Assembly: GCA_009995045.1 (NCBI GenBank)
Contig: JAACQG010000013.1
Location: 606 to 64,605, forward strand
DNA: 64,000 nucleotides
Direction of reading: 5' to 3'
Origin: Alphaproteobacteria bacterium
GTDB lineage: Bacteria > Pseudomonadota > Alphaproteobacteria > Micavibrionales > Micavibrionaceae
Shown: positions 4,237 to 64,000 of the stretch, one piece after another
Position numbering within the stretch: position 1 is the stretch's first letter
How the letters are laid out: every line of letters starts with the position of its first letter
Translations under genes and position numbers: made by a program
Notes under the pieces: generated by a model
What the model was told of the DNA's origin: nothing
Seen by the model: only the letters and a program-made list of their open reading frames with translations
The model's database searches: none

Positions 4237-6198
4237 ATGTTCGACAAGAACAACCACAACAATCCGAACAACAAAAATGCAATGCACCCCGAAGATATGC
4301 GAAACATGTTCATCTTCTTCGCCATCGCTGCTGTCTTATATTTCGCCTATAATTTCTACGTGATCGGCCCGCAAAAAGAAGCCATGCTGATTGCACAAAA
4401 GAAACAAGCCGAAATCGCCGCAAACCCACAAAGCCCCGAAGCCGTTAAGCTCGCACAAATCAAAAACCCGATAGAGCGTGACGAAGCCATAAAAAGCGAA
4501 CAACGCATCCAAATCGACAACGGCAGCGTCCACGGCAGCATCACAACCAAAGGCGCACGCCTTGATGATATCGAACTCAGCCACTACCACACCACTTTAG
4601 GCGGCAGTGAAGATGTCGCGGTATTATCACCCGCCAAAACAAAATTCCCCCGCCACGTCGAATATGGCTGGGCATCATCAGATGACCAAATCAAACTGCC
4701 TAATAAAGACACAATCTGGCAAGTGAGCGGCAACGCGGACCTCACCAAAGACACGCCTGTCACTTTGACATGGAGCAACGGCCAAGGCCTGACATTTGAA
4801 CGCACATTCTCGCTGGATGACAAATACCTCTTCACCATCACGCAAAATGTCTCAAACCAATCTGGAAAATCCGTCACACTCTATCCCTACGGCCTTGTCT
4901 CACAACAAGGAAAACCACCAAATTTTGCTGGGACTTGGATATCGCATGAAGGGCCATTGGGCTATGTCGGCGATGAAATGAAAGAGCCAAGCTACAACTC
5001 TTTACGCAAAGACACTAAAGAAGCCTCTAGCGCCAACCAGGGCTGGATCGGCATTACCGATAAATACTGGCTCACCGCGTTAATTCCCCCACAAGGACAG
5101 GACGTAAAATACAGCTTTAGCTATGCGGGTACACGCAAAGACCCCGACAATATCGGTCGTTTCCAATCCGATTTCCTCGGCGCGCCCATGACATTAACCG
5201 CGGGCACATCAAGCGCGGTTCAAAGCCGTCTTTTCGTCGGCGCAAAAGAATACGCAACGCTCCAAGATTACGAGAAAAACGCGGATATCCCCAAATTTAA
5301 CCTCGCTGTTAATTTCGGAATGCTCTGGTTCATGTCAAAACCGTTCTTCTATATTCTCCACCACGCAGGCGAGATCTTCGGCAACTTTGGCGCAGCCATC
5401 ATCTTCCTTACGATATTAATTCGTGGCGCCGTCTTCCCGCTGACCAATTTGTCATACAAATCTTTCGCAGGGATGAAAAAGGTAAACCCGCAAATTGTTG
5501 AATTGCGTAAAGAACTCAAAGACGACAAACAAAAATTACAGGCAGAATTAATCAAGCTGTATCAAAAAGAAGGCGTAAACCCCATGTCGGGCTGTTTGCC
5601 AATCTTGCTACAGATCCCGATTTTCTTCGCGCTCTATCGCGTCTTGTTTGTGACTATCGAAATGCGTCACGCGCCATTCGTTGGCTGGATCAAAGATTTG
5701 TCCGCCCCCGACCCAACAAGCATTTTCAACCTCTTCGGCCTCATCCCATGGGATCCGCCAGCTGTCCTCATGATCGGTGTATGGCCATGTCTCATGCTTG
5801 TTGCAATGGTCATGCAAAAGAACCTCAACCCACCACCCCAAGATAAACTCCAAAAAGATATGGCAACCTTTATGCCGTTCTTCTTCGCGTTCATCATGGC
5901 AAAATTCGCGGCGGGTCTTGTGATCTATTGGACATTCTCTGCGCTGATTGGCGTGCTTCAGCAAATCATCATCATGAAACGCATGAATGTGCCAATCCAC
6001 CTCTTCGGTGAAACAAAAGAAGAGGAAGAATTGGACGATCAAATTGATGATGGCCCCGCTGTTCATCCGCTGGCACAAATGGCCGAAGATGAATTCGAAG
6101 ACGCTTTAGGTCTCGATGATGGTGATGGTCAGCCGACAAAACCAATCAAGCCCCCGAAGCCTAAAACGAAACCCAAAAAGAGCAAAAAGAAGAAATAA
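4237..6198 (+). CDS. yidC: Membrane protein insertase YidC
   Basis: This 653-residue protein follows the Gram-negative YidC plan. A short Asn-rich N-terminus is followed by a first membrane helix (about residues 25-42). Next comes a large periplasmic beta domain (about 70-360), then the Oxa1/Alb3 core of five helices (about 375-595), including MSGCLPILLQIPIFFALYRV and the final YWTFSALIGVLQQ helix. The tail is acidic and then Lys/Pro-rich (EEEELDDQ, then repeated KPKTKPKKSKKKK-like residues). That basic tail probably contacts the ribosome or lipids. YidC inserts membrane proteins alone or with SecYEG. It is followed after 2 bp by engB. Confidence 0.96.
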   Translation: MFDKNNHNNPNNKNAMHPEDMRNMFIFFAIAAVLYFAYNFYVIGPQKEAMLIAQKKQAEIAANPQSPEAVKLAQIKNPIERDEAIKSEQRIQIDNGSVHGSITTKGARLDDIELSHYHTTLGGSEDVAVLSPAKTKFPRHVEYGWASSDDQIKLPNKDTIWQVSGNADLTKDTPVTLTWSNGQGLTFERTFSLDDKYLFTITQNVSNQSGKSVTLYPYGLVSQQGKPPNFAGTWISHEGPLGYVGDEMKEPSYNSLRKDTKEASSANQGWIGITDKYWLTALIPPQGQDVKYSFSYAGTRKDPDNIGRFQSDFLGAPMTLTAGTSSAVQSRLFVGAKEYATLQDYEKNADIPKFNLAVNFGMLWFMSKPFFYILHHAGEIFGNFGAAIIFLTILIRGAVFPLTNLSYKSFAGMKKVNPQIVELRKELKDDKQKLQAELIKLYQKEGVNPMSGCLPILLQIPIFFALYRVLFVTIEMRHAPFVGWIKDLSAPDPTSIFNLFGLIPWDPPAVLMIGVWPCLMLVAMVMQKNLNPPPQDKLQKDMATFMPFFFAFIMAKFAAGLVIYWTFSALIGVLQQIIIMKRMNVPIHLFGETKEEEELDDQIDDGPAVHPLAQMAEDEFEDALGLDDGDGQPTKPIKPPKPKTKPKKSKKKK

Positions 6199-6200
6199 TA

Positions 6201-6833
6201 GTGGATCAGGAAATTACCCAAGCAGAACTAGAAGACGCGCGAAAGCTTTTCGCTGGCCCTTGTGACTTCATGCTGGGCGTCGCCTCTCTCGGTCAACTGC
6301 CCGAAAGCGCGCTCCCCGAAGTCGCATTCGCCGGGCGTTCTAACGTGGGTAAATCATCCCTGCTTAACGCGCTGACCAACCGTAAGACCTTGGCCAAAAC
6401 ATCCAACACCCCTGGTCGCACGCAACAGCTCAACTATTTCAACTTGGGCGAAAAACTCTACATCGTTGATATGCCTGGTTACGGCTACGCCAAAGTCTCC
6501 AAAGAACAGCGCGATGAATGGACACGCCTCGTATTCGATTATTTGCGCGGCCGACCCACTTTGCGCTGCGTCTTTATCCTGATCGACTCCCGCCACGGCC
6601 TAAAAGATTCCGACATCATGCTCATGGAAATGCTCGACGAAGCCGCGGTCACATACCGCATCCTTCTCACCAAAACCGATAAAAGCAAAACAGCAGAGCT
6701 AGATGCGCTCATGGCAAAAACACTTGCGGTAGTCAAAAAACATGCCGCCGCCTACCCGCATATTCACGCAACAAGCTCAATCAAAGGCTACGGCATGGCA
6801 GAGCTTAAAGCCATCATAAGTTCCTACGGCTAA
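6201..6833 (+). CDS. engB: Ribosome-biogenesis GTP-binding protein EngB (YihA/YsxC)
   Basis: This 210-residue small GTPase has G1 AGRSNVGKSS (about 44-53), G3 VDMPGYGYAKV (about 89-99), and G4 LLTKTDK near residue 156. The NTPGRTQQLNYF switch region is characteristic of EngB. The family is needed for late assembly of the large ribosomal subunit. The start is GTG at 6201, two bases after the yidC stop, pointing to translational coupling in the rpmH-rnpA-yidD-yidC-engB run. It ends 3 bp before the stop of a convergent gene. Confidence 0.95.
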   Translation: MDQEITQAELEDARKLFAGPCDFMLGVASLGQLPESALPEVAFAGRSNVGKSSLLNALTNRKTLAKTSNTPGRTQQLNYFNLGEKLYIVDMPGYGYAKVSKEQRDEWTRLVFDYLRGRPTLRCVFILIDSRHGLKDSDIMLMEMLDEAAVTYRILLTKTDKSKTAELDALMAKTLAVVKKHAAAYPHIHATSSIKGYGMAELKAIISSYG

Positions 6834-10478: not shown

Positions 10479-11254
10479 CACGCTATAAACTCACCATCGA
10501 ATACCAAGGCACCGATTATTACGGCTGGCAACGCCAACCCGATCTGCCCACCATCCAAGGGGAAATCGAAAAAGCCATCCACGCATTTTGTGGCCAAGAG
10601 GTCGAGGTCACCTCGGCGGGGCGTACCGATGCGGGTGTCCACGCGCGTGGTCAAATCGCGCATGTCGATCTGGATGCATTCACAAAACCCATGGATCCAT
10701 TCGCAATCTCAAAAGCAATCAACGCCCATCTACGCCCACAGCCGATCACCATCATAAGCACTGAAATCGTCGATGATGATTTCCACGCGCGCTTTGCCGC
10801 AAAAAATAAACTCTACGCCTATCGCATCATCAACCGCCAAGCCTTCCTCACATTCGACAAAGGGCGCGCATGGCATGTCAAACGCCCGCTCGATACTGGC
10901 GCGATGCATGAGGCCGCGCAATTGCTGCTGGGGCAACATGATTTCTCAACCTTCCGCGACGCCCAATGCCAAGCCAACAATCCCATCCGCACGCTTGACC
11001 GCCTGGACGTGCAAAGCTTTCAAACCGCGCCCGACAAAGACGGCCAAGGCGCACAAGAAATCTTTATCGAGGTCGAAGCCATGTCCTTCCTCCATCACAT
11101 GGTACGCAACCTTGTGGGCACGTTAACGCTGGTCGGAGAGGGAAAATGGAAACCCGAAGATATCCTAACCGCGCTAAACGCCAAGGACAGAACAAAGGGC
11201 GGCCCAACCGCGCCGTCCGACGGCCTATATCTTGTGCGCATAGATTACACATAG
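10475..11254 (+). CDS. truA: tRNA pseudouridine(38-40) synthase TruA
   Basis: This 259-residue protein has the TruA signatures: YQGTDYYGWQRQ near the N-terminus, the catalytic loop SAGRTDAGVHARGQ with Asp52, and FLHHMVRNLVGTL near the C-terminus. It isomerises uridines in the tRNA anticodon stem-loop. The start codon is GTG within the overlap with fmt. The def-fmt-truA-dapE-dapD neighbourhood is typical of Alphaproteobacteria, though here dapE and dapD face the other way and a PRC-barrel gene intervenes. Confidence 0.96.
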   Translation: MTRYKLTIEYQGTDYYGWQRQPDLPTIQGEIEKAIHAFCGQEVEVTSAGRTDAGVHARGQIAHVDLDAFTKPMDPFAISKAINAHLRPQPITIISTEIVDDDFHARFAAKNKLYAYRIINRQAFLTFDKGRAWHVKRPLDTGAMHEAAQLLLGQHDFSTFRDAQCQANNPIRTLDRLDVQSFQTAPDKDGQGAQEIFIEVEAMSFLHHMVRNLVGTLTLVGEGKWKPEDILTALNAKDRTKGGPTAPSDGLYLVRIDYT

Positions 11255-11340
11255 ATCATACAGGGCTGAATTATGAAAAGTAACTTGCTTTTTTGAATAT
11301 TGTCCTATATCACTAGCACATGGAAATTTTGGAGAAGAAC

Positions 11341-12021
11341 ATGAAGATTTTACCGCTCATAACACTGGCCGCGCTCGCAATAATAACATTGCCGAGCGTA
11401 TCTTATGCGCAAGTCAATCGCGCTATGGAACAATTAAGCGCGCTGAACCGCATCCAGCCTCTCCAAAACCCCGAATTCGAAGCAGCAGACGATATCCTCG
11501 GCCGCAAAATCATTGACCGCAAAAATAAGGTCGTCGGCAACGCAAGAGACGTGATCATCAACCAAAACGGCACAATCGCCAGCATCCAAACCGATTTTGA
11601 CCGCCTGCGTTTGGGCAGTGAGGTTAACCTCAATTTCCGCACATTGCGCATCGGCACTGTTTCAAACGCATATTCATTGAACATGGATTCCGACGAAATT
11701 GCCGCATTCTACCCGCAGCTCCTCTCCGATATTGAAACCGCATCCGGTGATAATACAGACACATTTTCAACGCGTGAGCTTCTTGGAACAACCCTTCGTG
11801 CAAAAGACGGGCGTAAACTCGGTAAGGTTGAGAGCATTTTATTCGGCGCAAATGGCGGCATCGCTTCCGCAGTATACGCAGAAATGACATATGGCACATT
11901 GCGCGGTGAAGCGCTGGCCGTACCCTTTCGCAGTGTCACCTTTAAAACCGAAAGAGGTCGTCTAGTGGGCAACGTCAGCAACGATCTTGCCGACGCCATG
12001 ATCAAAATCGCCGATGATTAA
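11341..12021 (+). CDS. Secreted PRC-barrel domain protein
   Basis: From the ATG at 11341, which has GGAG about 9 bases upstream, the product is 226 residues with a clear signal peptide (MKILPLITLAALAIITLPSVSYAQ). Two PRC-barrel-like repeats follow: DDILGRKIIDRKNKVVGNAR with VIINQNGTIASI, and LLGTTLRAKDGRKLGKVESI with GGIASAVY. PRC barrels are small beta domains used in RNA processing, photosynthetic reaction centres and envelope stress proteins. An exported tandem form suggests a periplasmic binding or structural role. Function unknown. A 7-bp hairpin (12018-12036) overlaps the stop codon. Confidence 0.78.
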   Translation: MKILPLITLAALAIITLPSVSYAQVNRAMEQLSALNRIQPLQNPEFEAADDILGRKIIDRKNKVVGNARDVIINQNGTIASIQTDFDRLRLGSEVNLNFRTLRIGTVSNAYSLNMDSDEIAAFYPQLLSDIETASGDNTDTFSTRELLGTTLRAKDGRKLGKVESILFGANGGIASAVYAEMTYGTLRGEALAVPFRSVTFKTERGRLVGNVSNDLADAMIKIADD

Positions 12022-12057
12022 TGCGCCCAGCATTAAACCTGCACAGCGCCGCGGGTG

Positions 12058-13194
12058 TTAGCCCTCAAAATACCGCACCAAAATGCGCTCATAAATACGG
12101 GTGAGATTTTCAAGATCCGAGACTTTAGCATTTTCATCAACTTGATGAATGCTCTCATTCACCGCGCCACATTCAATCACGGGACAATGCTGCACCACAA
12201 AGCGCGCATCCGATGTACCGCCATTGGTCGTATAATCCGGCGTACGCCCGGTGATGTCGGCTACCGCATCGCGCACAATTTCGCTCCACGCACCGGGTTT
12301 GGTGATAAAACTCTCCGCATTGCCTTCAAATTCAATCTCATAAGGCGCGCCCACGCTGTCCAAAATCTCGCGCAATTTTACCTTCAATGTCTCACTGCTC
12401 CATGTGTCATTAAAGCGAATGTTAAACGCTAATGTCCCATGCGCCGGAATGACATTGGTTGCTTTATTGCCCACATCAATGCTGGAAATTTCCAAATTCG
12501 TCGGCGGAAAAAACTCATTCCCCGCATCAAATCGATAGCTCGCAAGCGCATCCGCCAGTTTGACCAGACGCGGCAAAGGGTTATCCGCCAAATGTTGATA
12601 CGCGACATGCCCTTGCACGCCTTTAACGCTCAAATATCCGTTTAATGAACCGCGCCGCCCGATCTTAATCTCTTGCCCCAACTCATCGGGATTTGTCGGC
12701 TCCCCGACAATTGCAACATCTGGCGTATGGCCATTTTTCGCCATCCAATCAAGCACTTTCACCGTGCCATTAACCGCCAAATCTTCTTCATCCCCCGTGA
12801 TCAAAAGGCTAATCGAGCCGCTGGGCTTATGATCCTTAAGATACGCTGAAACCGCCGCAACAAATGCCGCAACCCCGCCTTTCATATCGCTCGCGCCGCG
12901 TCCATAAATGAAGCCATCACGAATGGTTGGCTCAAATGGCGGTGACGTCCACGCGGCCTCATCACCCACAGGCACAACATCCGTATGCCCCGCAAAACAA
13001 ATATGCGGCGACCCTGTGCCAAGGCGCGCAAATAAATTCACAATCTCACCCGTCTCATCAGAAAACGGCAAATGGTGGCATTCAAACCCCATCGCCGTAA
13101 GTGCGTCGGCCAAAACCTCCTGCGCACCCGCATCCTCGGGGGTAACAGAAGGGCAAGCAATGAGTTGTTTAAGCAATGTTATTGTATCTATCAT
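12058..13194 (-). CDS. dapE: Succinyl-diaminopimelate desuccinylase
   Basis: This 378-residue M20-family metallohydrolase has the two-metal motifs CFAGHTDVVPVGD and GRGASDMKGG, the catalytic TGDEED, and the late VVQHCPVIECG and GAVNESIHQVDE segments. It removes succinate from N-succinyl-LL-diaminopimelate in lysine and peptidoglycan precursor synthesis. dapD of the same pathway lies 2 kb upstream on the same strand, separated by an HD-domain gene. An AT-rich stretch of about 290 bp precedes it. Confidence 0.96.
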   Translation of the reverse strand: MIDTITLLKQLIACPSVTPEDAGAQEVLADALTAMGFECHHLPFSDETGEIVNLFARLGTGSPHICFAGHTDVVPVGDEAAWTSPPFEPTIRDGFIYGRGASDMKGGVAAFVAAVSAYLKDHKPSGSISLLITGDEEDLAVNGTVKVLDWMAKNGHTPDVAIVGEPTNPDELGQEIKIGRRGSLNGYLSVKGVQGHVAYQHLADNPLPRLVKLADALASYRFDAGNEFFPPTNLEISSIDVGNKATNVIPAHGTLAFNIRFNDTWSSETLKVKLREILDSVGAPYEIEFEGNAESFITKPGAWSEIVRDAVADITGRTPDYTTNGGTSDARFVVQHCPVIECGAVNESIHQVDENAKVSDLENLTRIYERILVRYFEG

Positions 13195-41136: not shown

Positions 41137-41240
41137 ATTCAATATATAGATAACCTCACCCCGCTTGGCAACGAGATTGGGAAATTAAAACGTCACACCT
41201 TGACAAATTCTCCCACTATGCAAATGTCAAATCTTACTAG

Positions 41241-41320
41241 AAACCTTCGGGGTGTTTGAGAAATCTCAAACTGAGAAATACCCGCACAACTTGAACCGAT
41301 TAGAATCGGCGTAAGGAAAG
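41241..41320 (+). promoter_or_regulatory. TPP riboswitch (THI element)
   Basis: The conserved core is present in order: CCTTCGGGGTG (41244-41254), hairpin TTTGAG-aaat-CTCAAA, then CTGAGA (41271-41276), ATACCCG, TTGAACCGAT (41291-41300), a short CCGAT/ATCGG stem, and CGTAAGGAAAG. The outer CCTT/AAGG pairing closes it. It lies 8 bp before the first gene of the thiC operon. A -35-like TTGACA is at 41200-41205. Binding of thiamine pyrophosphate would reduce expression of the operon. Confidence 0.93.
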
Positions 41321-41328
41321 GACATACT

Positions 41329-43505
<2,177 letters not shown>

Positions 43506-56027: not shown

Positions 56028-56585
56028 ATGAAACACATAACAATAAAAGCGATAACGCTAATATCAATCTTAACAATATTACCAATCTCCACGCTGAACA
56101 GCGCGAATGCCAAGCGCGATGTGATTAGCCAGCTTAAAGAAAACAACGCGCAATTTTCACAAATTTTGAACGCAAAATCTGATCCAGAAATTTTGCTGGA
56201 CTTCCTGCATAACAAAATTGACGACAGCGCAGACATTACAATCAGCGTTAAAAATCCGCAAATCAACAATGCCGGTGCGATTGAGATGAAACTCACCAAA
56301 GCCGATTACATCAACAGCTACCTCTATGGCCCGCGCCAAGTTAAAAACTACCATGCCGATATTAAGACATTGAATGCAAAAATGGACGATGAGACAAACA
56401 CCCTCAACACGAAGGAAATCCTCACCGAAAGCGGTACAATGCTAAACCCGCATGACTATGCAGATCCGGGCCGCCCCTATAGCAGCATCACCGCCTGTGA
56501 GTCTCAATACAGCGTGGAAAGCGGACAGCCAACCCTCAAAAAAGCCACCTGTAAAACACAAATCGCATACGAAGAAGCGGTCTAG
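56028..56585 (+). CDS. Secreted protein, paralogue 2 of a tandem pair
   Basis: The product is 185 residues with a signal peptide (ITIKAITLISILTILPISTLNSANA). SDPEILLDFLHNKIDDSADITIS corresponds to the DPNVARSFLH region of the first paralogue. KADYINSYLYGPRQVKNYHADIKTLNAKM corresponds to its AGLINQ...HYHQTMDIL region. Two Cys (ITACESQY, KATCKTQ) also correspond. The pair thus arose by duplication followed by strong divergence. Function unknown; an NTF2-like fold is possible. Confidence 0.75.
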   Translation: MKHITIKAITLISILTILPISTLNSANAKRDVISQLKENNAQFSQILNAKSDPEILLDFLHNKIDDSADITISVKNPQINNAGAIEMKLTKADYINSYLYGPRQVKNYHADIKTLNAKMDDETNTLNTKEILTESGTMLNPHDYADPGRPYSSITACESQYSVESGQPTLKKATCKTQIAYEEAV

Positions 56586-60333: not shown

Positions 60334-60338
60334 CAAAA

Positions 60339-60360
60339 AACGCGAGGCATGCCCCGCGTT
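60339..60360 (-). terminator. Terminator of the convergent peptidase gene
   Basis: A 22-nt near-perfect palindrome, AACGCG-a-GGC-at-GCC-c-CGCGTT, is preceded by A6 on the plus strand, which becomes T6 on the minus strand after the peptidase stop. It may serve pyk as well. Confidence 0.78.
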
Positions 60361-60386
60361 CATATTCGACCAATATATTCTTTAAA

Positions 60387-61307
60387 TTAATCCGCGCTCG
60401 CAACAATGGTGTTGGTTGGTGCTTGATGCAACCACCATGCTTGGCGATTGATGGAGTAAATCGGGCGGTAACGCCCCGCGCGTTCGGCGTCAACCAAAGT
60501 CTTGATCTGATTATCGAGGATATATGCGCCTTCATTCGTGTAAGCCACCAAAACCGCATGTGGAATATTCTTAACCGTGTCTTGAACAATCGCAATACGA
60601 AGACGCTCTTCCGGGAAACCCAATGATTTAAGCGCCGCATATTTCGCAATCGCAAAATCTTCACAATCGCCGCCGCGTTTCAAAAACTCGACCGGTGTTG
60701 CCCAATAATCGCTCTGACCCCAGTTACGCTGATCAACAATGTAACGTGTCTGATTAACAAGCTTGTTAACGCCGCGCACCATGTCTTTCATGGATTGTCC
60801 TTTAAATGTGTTCACGTCTTTTTGAAAGTCGCGCACCACATCAAGATTGGCTTGTTGCTTAAGCTGGCGATCAAACCGCGCAAACATCCCTGTCCATTTT
60901 GTAAACGCCTTAAGGTTGCGATCTTTTTTCTCGGCAGTGCCAAGCAAATTAGGGTAAGACGCAACGCGGCCAAACTCGGCGCTTGCGCTAGCCATTTGAA
61001 CGCCTTTCATCGGCTCGGCATGCGCACGCTTGCCATGAAGGCTGGTCAATGACGCCGCAAATAACAATGCTGTCGCTGCGGTGCGCAATGCATATTGACG
61101 CCCGAGAAGCATTTTAAGTTGGAATGGAGAGATTTTAGAGGTGTCTACAAGGATTTGTCCCAAAGGACGCGCCGTTTCTTTTTGTGCATGCAGTGCGTGA
61201 CGCAATTCGTGTTGGTCGATGACACCTTTTTGAACCAAGATCTCGCCGAGCTTATTGCGCTCGATCGTCTTACGAATACTGCTTAAAAATCCTGTTTTCT
61301 TACTCAT
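60387..61307 (-). CDS. Transglutaminase-like cysteine peptidase fused to MshE-type c-di-GMP-binding repeats
   Basis: The product is 306 residues. The C-terminal half is a BTLCP/LapG-like papain-type fold: Cys215 in RGGDCEDFAIAKY, His250 in NIPHAVLV and Asp265 in YILDNQ. The N-terminal part has two 24-residue repeats of the MshE N-terminal type. They share LGxxL(I)V...L....L..Q positions (19-42: L20 G21 L24 V25 G28 I30 L35 A38 L39 Q42; 48-71: L49 G50 L53 V54 I59 L64 L68 Q71) and have a 5-residue spacer. In MshE such repeats bind c-di-GMP. A hydrophobic segment (75-90) then crosses or enters the membrane. LapG-type enzymes cut surface adhesins; the adhesin is not in the window. Confidence 0.87.
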   Translation of the reverse strand: MSKKTGFLSSIRKTIERNKLGEILVQKGVIDQHELRHALHAQKETARPLGQILVDTSKISPFQLKMLLGRQYALRTAATALLFAASLTSLHGKRAHAEPMKGVQMASASAEFGRVASYPNLLGTAEKKDRNLKAFTKWTGMFARFDRQLKQQANLDVVRDFQKDVNTFKGQSMKDMVRGVNKLVNQTRYIVDQRNWGQSDYWATPVEFLKRGGDCEDFAIAKYAALKSLGFPEERLRIAIVQDTVKNIPHAVLVAYTNEGAYILDNQIKTLVDAERAGRYRPIYSINRQAWWLHQAPTNTIVASAD

Positions 61308-63451: not shown

Positions 63452-64000
63452 ATGCAAAAATTCGCTCTCATCCTTGGTCTCTCCGCCGCAACCATATCCC
63501 TCAACGCTTGTAAAACAGTCATGAACCCGACATTCATTCCATCGGGCTACGCGCATCACCACGGTGAATTCAAAGCACCACCGGCCGATGACCCATGGAG
63601 CATCGGGTATGATTACACCCGCGCAGAAAATGCAGCAGTGTTAAACCAATGGAAAGCAGTCGCCGCGGATCTAACGGATAAAATTGAAGATGTTGCCCCG
63701 CTATCAGGCGCGCCAATTTTCCTCTCATCACCAAAACTTGATAACGCATTTACATTAAGCCTCGACCATGCATTGCGTGAAGAATTCCGCGAGCGCGGCT
63801 ATCGCTTGGCCTCCATCCCTAGCGAAGACACAATCAAGCTCCAGGTCTCTAGCTATGATCCGGAATTTACAGATGTGATGCGCAGCTATGAATTAAATGA
63901 TCAGGAAGAAATCGACCGTCCCGAACCACCCGCCGAAATCACCAAAGATTTAATATTGAAAGTCGACGGCCTTGTCGGTGACACCCCAACAACATTGGTG
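63452..64000 (+). CDS. Predicted lipoprotein, 5' part (cut by window edge)
   Basis: All 183 visible codons are open. The protein begins MQKFALILGLSAATISLNACKT, a lipoprotein signal with Cys20. The mature part continues with HHHGEFKAPPADDPWSIGYD, NAAVLNQWKAVAADLTDKIED and FTLSLDHALREEFRERGYRLA. The general plan (a small outer-membrane lipoprotein with a two-domain 'SHS2/FlgO-like' feel) suggests an envelope-assembly factor, but I cannot assign it. GGAAG lies upstream. Confidence 0.85.
   Translation, partial: MQKFALILGLSAATISLNACKTVMNPTFIPSGYAHHHGEFKAPPADDPWSIGYDYTRAENAAVLNQWKAVAADLTDKIEDVAPLSGAPIFLSSPKLDNAFTLSLDHALREEFRERGYRLASIPSEDTIKLQVSSYDPEFTDVMRSYELNDQEEIDRPEPPAEITKDLILKVDGLVGDTPTTLV

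Follow-up and report, generated by a model that had tools for sequence, protein, structure and literature searches.

Can a single gene hold both a receptor for cyclic dimeric guanosine monophosphate (c-di-GMP) and the peptidase that this messenger would control on the other side of the membrane? The question is raised by a gene in a stretch of 64,000 nucleotides from a genome of the Micavibrionaceae (contig JAACQG010000013.1, positions 606 to 64,605), hereafter the window, whose predicted product begins with an MshEN-type pair of repeats and continues through a hydrophobic segment into a LapG-like cysteine peptidase of the C93 family. Within the searches made, this fusion is a real and undescribed architecture composed of two known domains and found order-wide. 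With a probability that we put at roughly 0.4, c-di-GMP on the MshEN leader would control the export or release of a periplasmic C93 peptidase.

The NCBIfam profile NF053729 (MshE-related c-di-GMP domain) matches residues 19-71 along its full length (profile positions 1-53 of 53) with 53.9 bits (curated cut-off 38; E = 1.1 × 10−14), far beyond chance, and Peptidase_C93 (PF06035) matches residues 170-278 with 80.3 bits against a cut-off of 27. An earlier sequence-only reading of this DNA, which described two 24-residue repeats (19-42 and 48-71) with a 5-residue spacer, fused as an MshEN-type pair to a LapG-like peptidase, is thereby confirmed. The profile search that it proposed as a check succeeded with the MshE-type NF053729, and Pfam MshEN (PF05157) gave no match on the window protein. 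In the order's ATPases, PF05157 falls behind the repeat pair (in G000:C7 the pair lies at 66065-66220 and PF05157 at 66227-66373; in the ATPase L201, PF05157 covers residues 103-187, again behind the pair); since it covers the post-pair stretch in these two ATPases, the fusion is without the C-terminal MshEN subdomain, the pair itself being present. In a phmmer search of residues 1-97 against solved structures, PilF (7 × 10−14) and MshE (5htl, 7.8 × 10−8) were matched, and the predicted fold of the pair superposes on c-di-GMP-bound MshE and PilF, with 38% identity and a root-mean-square deviation of 1.2-1.3 to 5htl in Foldseek. The LapG equivalog NF045674 scored 102.4 bits on the fusion protein, below its cut-off of 320; the protein is classed as a variant of C93 peptidase and is neither a LapG equivalog nor part of a LapD-LapG system.

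Among 58 genomes of the order (Micavibrio relatives, including the window's own), C93 matches were found in 55, over the cut-off in 54, and the MshE-type domain in 56; when the coordinates of the two match lists were paired, both domains lay in one open frame in 51/58. The survey of other genomes that the sequence-only reading had suggested thus shows the fusion to recur. C93 matches are absent from G021, G022 and G039 (84, 84 and 62% complete, respectively), the halves of the fusion sit at two contig ends in G057, and in G008 (L200) the frame is broken inside the MshEN part of the assembly, through either assembly error or decay. In a scan of named genomes, of which the best 80 of 549 confirmed loci were considered, the query match starts at residues 1-16 in 69 of 70 loci (L063-L132) and at residue 43 in the other (L088); their titles read Micavibrio, Alphaproteobacteria or, in two cases, Rhodospirillaceae/Rhodospirillales bacterium. 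From these titles the order would be Micavibrionales. The remaining loci of these 80 (L133-L142; Dongia, Rhodospirillaceae and others) match from residue 100 on only. Matches were obtained in 114/385 genomes of the class at 1e-10 and in 279/398 genomes of the phylum at 1e-5. Among the matches listed, only four in the class start before position 74 of the 313 of the model, all from the window's own family, and in the phylum only the window's own spans the N-terminal part; none listed outside the window's family, in either sample, spans both domains.

C93-type peptidases are also encoded on 31 viral contigs (IMG/VR, L032-L062); a viral origin of the fusion was rejected, none of the listed relatives starting before query residue 113. 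A plasmid or mobile origin was likewise rejected, given that, of 140 matching PLSDB records, none reaches 80% coverage of the query. In five of the 70 named loci, the fusion is followed downstream, on its own strand, by another C93 peptidase (about 183-242 residues, lacking MshEN; Table 1), and six consecutive C93 matches lie on one strand in G044:C9:1081-6538. For further comparison, 66 fusions were aligned, namely the window protein and 65 of the 70 named loci; L072, L089 and L123 contain undetermined residues and were left out, as were L075 and L088, whose N terminus the start rule failed to locate. The catalytic triad Cys215-His250-Asp265, earlier described as intact, is so, and is invariant in all 66.

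At which step could a receptor of this kind act on the peptidase? Residue 75 is Arg or Lys in 66/66 fusions, always with three residues between it and Q71, and is followed by 10-21 residues (median 17) among which D, E, K, R, N, Q and H do not occur. Signal peptidase I (SPase I) sites as a rule carry small residues at −3 and −1, and at the putative site Ala97 occupies −1, with A/S/V/T/G at −3, in 66/66. Thus the features of a Sec signal peptide (positive residue, hydrophobic core, small −3/−1 residues) were found by an inspection rule in every member. Between residues 72 and 120, entropy falls below 1 at R75 and A97 only. The segment therefore looks like a cleavable Sec signal peptide, a character that the sequence-only reading missed while correctly noting the segment's presence. 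The topology that this reading called the open point, with the repeats in the cytosol and the peptidase outside, fits this signal anatomy, but the sensor is predicted to be cut from the enzyme: because an SPase-I-like site is present in 66/66, the mature peptidase is probably separated from its sensor, which leaves the proposal that both act as one polypeptide unsupported.

In the structure model, the last ligand-binding helix (L64, L68, Q71) and the hydrophobic stretch form a single uninterrupted helix, 61-89. Since this is one predicted helix with a fixed Q71-R75 spacing, the sensor would be rigidly coupled to the export signal. The link to the peptidase differs, the stretch from A97 to F135 measuring 37 to 51 residues among the fusions and the linker being of low confidence in the model. 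Plain C93 relatives have, by eye, an ordinary signal sequence at the matching place (9/10 of L133-L142, and G041), and the simplest reading of the fusion's origin is that a secreted C93 enzyme of the ordinary kind acquired an MshEN pair ahead of its signal peptide, with the cut site retained. An internal start that would skip the MshEN pair was also considered and rejected. The sequence AGAGGG, similar to Shine-Dalgarno (SD) motifs, precedes the ATG of the fusion frame; an in-frame ATG occurs at columns 57-79 in 37/66 fusions, but an SD-like core together with a start in only 2/66, so that internal initiation is not a general feature. No Met column in this region is conserved among the 66.

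As in MshE, PilF and NfrB, the pair consists of two 24-residue motifs with a 5-residue spacer; both motifs have this length in 66/66 fusions, and the spacer is 5 residues in 63 and 8-9 in 3. G21, G50, L35 and Q71 are invariant (66/66), L39, L68 and G28 are found in 64, 65 and 62 of the 66, respectively, and positions 20, 24, 30, 35, 39, 49, 53, 59, 64 and 68 are hydrophobic in all. The window protein has the position-3 Gly (G21, G50), the stacking Leu (L20, L35, L39, L49, L64, L68) and the terminal Gln (Q42, Q71). It departs from the full published MshEN consensus (R at position 1 and G at position 10 of both motifs) at K19, P48 and S57; the relaxed search motif, as described in PMC5013675, admits K/P and S, and K58 falls outside its hydrophobic class. 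Because the full consensus is not matched, we term the domain MshEN-type, a putative binder of c-di-GMP.

The deviations P48 and S57, noted in the sequence-only reading, are real, and K19 (Lys for Arg in the first repeat) went unmentioned there. The weaker binding which that reading thought possible from the missing Arg is not supported: according to PMC11731258, PilF GSPII-B, whose two motifs start with Lys and Leu, binds with a dissociation constant of 6 nM, compared with 500 nM for MshE, and position 57 is unconserved in any case. The same source describes isolated N-terminal subdomains that still bind (MshE, 350 nM; PilF, 54 nM). When the 14 c-di-GMP contact columns of MshE (PMC5013675) were transferred through the motif register, their mean entropy was 0.80, compared with 1.94 for the whole domain, a value as low being reached in 1/100000 random draws. 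We infer that the MshEN pair of the fusion would bind c-di-GMP.

The pre-protein would then comprise a cytosolic MshEN receptor (residues 1-71), a Sec signal core (75-90), an SPase I site (A95-x-A97) and a periplasmic C93 cysteine peptidase (about residues 98-306). With the hydrophobic core continuing the last ligand-binding helix, c-di-GMP binding may alter the insertion or cutting of the adjoining signal peptide, and the state of insertion or cleavage would set the amount of free periplasmic peptidase. Insertion, translocation or cleavage of the leader is the point of control that we favour, since ligand helix and signal core form one helix of fixed spacing, whereas the link to the peptidase is loose; the binding step and the signal peptidase cut are both predicted from sequence features. 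No c-di-GMP input to the peptidase other than its own leader was found. LapD recruits LapG at high c-di-GMP (as described in PMC4359373 and PMC13090378), and by analogy high c-di-GMP would retain the enzyme, and a drop would free it to cut an attachment-related envelope protein; the sense of the control and the nature of the substrate both come from this analogy. More specifically, the receptor might constitute the n-region of a cleavable Sec signal, i.e., a messenger-gated signal peptide by which one gene performs the task of LapD-LapG, a proposal that we regard as possible but tentative.

Several observations weigh against control through the leader. To our knowledge, gating of a signal peptide by a ligand has no precedent. 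Nor is the fusion indispensable, given that G033 (98% complete) is without it, with a weak C93 match only, and that the peptidase of G041 (73% complete) has an ordinary signal peptide and no MshEN. In some members, the uncharged stretch, at up to 21 residues, is long enough for a stable membrane anchor. Such an anchor would be permanent if the protein were an uncut, one-polypeptide switch, in which cytosolic c-di-GMP alters the tethered peptidase, for example, through dimerisation or distance from the membrane. The length of the run, the helix that, in the model, joins the binding site to the membrane segment without interruption, and the membrane-anchored LapG homologue DvhG of Desulfovibrio vulgaris (PMC13090378) all agree with such a switch; we nevertheless consider it unlikely, in view of the −3/−1 motif in 66/66 fusions, the conservation of A97 as one of the two low-entropy columns, and a periplasmic linker that, variable in length and poorly defined in the model, would be a poor path for allostery.

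The other adverse points concern the ligand. Q42 is present in 52/66 fusions and lost in 14; position 10 of motif II (residue 57) is Gly, Ala or Ser in 36/66 and another residue in 30; and motif II starts with Pro in the window protein, R/K/P/N being found there in 45/66. According to PMC12002112, PilF GSPII-A, in which both Gln and one Gly are lost, is a non-binder, and restored motifs did not make it bind, so that sequence alone cannot prove binding. These substitutions, the deviations P48, S57 and K58 in repeat 2, and the example of a non-binding MshEN homologue would all fit a domain that has lost c-di-GMP binding and serves as a structural or targeting leader. This is improbable, however, because the position-3 Gly of both motifs and Gln71 persist in 66/66, the stacking-leucine positions are hydrophobic throughout, conservation is higher in the contact columns than elsewhere in the domain, and the 6 nM binder PilF GSPII-B itself has Lys and Leu, not Arg, at position 1 (PMC11731258).

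Control through the leader would bypass a separate receptor of the LapD kind. The LapD periplasmic domain (LapD_MoxY_N) was over the cut-off in 0/58 order genomes, in agreement with the sequence-only reading, in which sensor and peptidase may be one polypeptide, but it was also found in none of 14 control genomes, leaving the search without a positive control; one match below threshold (18.5 bits) was obtained in G055. No substrate was found for the adhesin release that the same reading suggested. The LapA retention module (NF033682) was over the cut-off in 0/58 genomes, with partial matches in 44/58. The cleavage site sought was [T/A/P]AAG, which we take to be the LapG-type site of retention-module adhesins. 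The 25 proteins extracted below the cut-off form one family of 733-1963 residues (L148:6371-9016 and 24 relatives in L150-L153 and L176-L195), in which no LapA-type substrate was recognised; no AAG-type site is shared, the tetrapeptide occurring in 10/25, at positions scattered from 147 to 1139. Two scanned proteins of this family have a FecR domain over the Pfam cut-off. In several genomes, the FecR-type candidates lie a few kb from an LssB-type secretion ATPase, and in L152 one such gene stands between those for a cyclic-nucleotide-binding EAL protein and for a CHASE2/adenylate-cyclase protein (5563-6786 and 10580-12862). The window's own genome contains an RTX-repeat frame of 961 residues. 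In the described relative M. aeruginosavorus, transcription differs strongly between attack and attachment phases, and six RTX proteins with type I signals are described; the main text of that paper mentions neither c-di-GMP, GGDEF nor transglutaminase (PMC3189940). The substrate need not be an adhesin, because HvyA limits the capsule in Caulobacter (PMC4241560).

Comparison with known systems sets the fusion apart in each case. In contrast to LapG/LapD of Pseudomonas fluorescens and Legionella, the control domain is encoded on the peptidase's own gene, and neither a LapD domain nor a LapA retention module was found over the cut-offs in the 58 genomes. HvyA, an alphaproteobacterial BTLCP-C93 protein, and the plain C93 relatives (L133-L142) have the same class of catalytic domain behind a Sec signal; however, HvyA, as described in PMC4241560, consists of signal and BTLCP only, belongs to a capsule-export locus and is controlled by abundance, whereas the fusion has an MshEN pair ahead of the signal and hldE and pyruvate kinase as neighbours. 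DvhG resembles the fusion in having a C93-type domain behind an N-terminal membrane segment within a c-di-GMP pathway, but c-di-GMP is sensed by a separate HD-GYP protein (the DvhD system), and DvhG has a transmembrane helix and about 180 disordered residues, MshEN being unmentioned in the main text (PMC13090378). As partners of MshEN, PMC5013675 names ATPases, glycosyltransferases and 'other domains', and the words peptidase and transmembrane are absent from its main text; unlike those proteins, the fusion combines the pair with a signal peptide behind it and is without the C-terminal subdomain covered by PF05157. No description of an MshEN/C93-peptidase fusion was found in the open-licence papers searched.

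The gene is flanked by pyruvate kinase and hldE. In 71 neighbour sets (the 70 named loci and the window end), in which the annotated clusters were hldE and pyruvate kinase, the former was found in 56 and the latter in 37; where the fusion gene was called (67 sets), hldE lies immediately upstream of it in 53. The fusion gene appears to stand alone, and a terminator-like hairpin behind it (Table 1) would fit a single-gene transcript, such sites numbering 2 in the pattern scan compared with 1.5 expected in shuffles. Riboswitch control was rejected, since no Rfam family reached its gathering score near the gene. Synthesis of c-di-GMP is likely, as GGDEF matches occur in 58/58 order genomes (7 in the window's own). 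An LssB-type type I secretion ATPase, presumably LapB-like, is over the cut-off in 54/58.

Besides the fusion, many order genomes contain a longer MshEN frame (about 600-800 residues), which in G044 is a secretion ATPase of the T2SSE type. The one in G000 is a fragment at a contig end and matches PilB weakly. A second MshEN-pair gene lies 2-3 kb from the fusion in L201:5155-9700 (G044), as well as in G053 C79 and G056 C1, and in L201 hldE stands, by eye, between the fusion and the T2SSE-type ATPase gene. Such frames, the strong signal-peptide anatomy and the retained contact residues would also suit constitutive processing, in which signal peptidase always frees the enzyme and the leftover MshEN-helix fragment serves as a separate, membrane-bound c-di-GMP receptor or only locates the precursor near c-di-GMP-bound machinery. 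We think this quite unlikely, because the fixed Q71-R75 spacing suggests that the link between sensor and signal matters and a free receptor would not need fusion to a peptidase.

Table 1 Positions of the fusion gene, its parts and related features.
Feature	Position	Strand	Remarks
Full gene, MshEN - signal peptide - C93 peptidase fusion	60387..61307	(-)	306 aa, ATG start, stop included
MshEN motif I, residues 19-42 (K19 L20 G21 ... L35 ... L39 ... Q42)	61182..61253	(-)	NF053729 match
MshEN motif II, residues 48-71 (P48 L49 G50 ... L64 ... L68 ... Q71)	61095..61166	(-)	NF053729 match
R75 and hydrophobic region (residues 75-90), putative signal peptide	61038..61085	(-)	predicted helix 61-89, shared with end of motif II
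Putative signal peptidase I site A95-H96-A97	61017..61025	(-)	predicted cut before E98
C93 (LapG/BTLCP-type) peptidase domain, residues 121-295	60423..60947	(-)	
Catalytic Cys215	60663..60665	(-)	66/66 fusions
Catalytic His250	60558..60560	(-)	66/66 fusions
Catalytic Asp265	60513..60515	(-)	66/66 fusions
Terminator-like hairpin and T run, just 3′ of fusion stop	60338..60361	(-)	pattern scan, consensus match only
Second C93 peptidases (other loci)	L092:9024-9698, L095:9095-9745, L106:9077-9751, L120:9772-10425, L121:9286-9834 (start uncertain)		

Elsewhere in the window, a thiamine pyrophosphate (TPP) riboswitch at 41238-41334 (+) (61.9 bits) precedes the ThiC gene (41637-43505), and the open frames at 56028-56585 (+) and 63452-64000 (+; running off the window) start, by eye, like signal sequences, and no NCBIfam family matches them at 1e-3.

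If c-di-GMP does act on the MshEN leader, the messenger would be linked to the cell exterior at the export signal itself, and not via a transmembrane receptor. The fusion occurs widely in the order of the epibiotic predator Micavibrio, a bacterium with alternating attack and attachment phases (PMC3189940), and would offer, in a single gene, a switch for testing c-di-GMP control of export.
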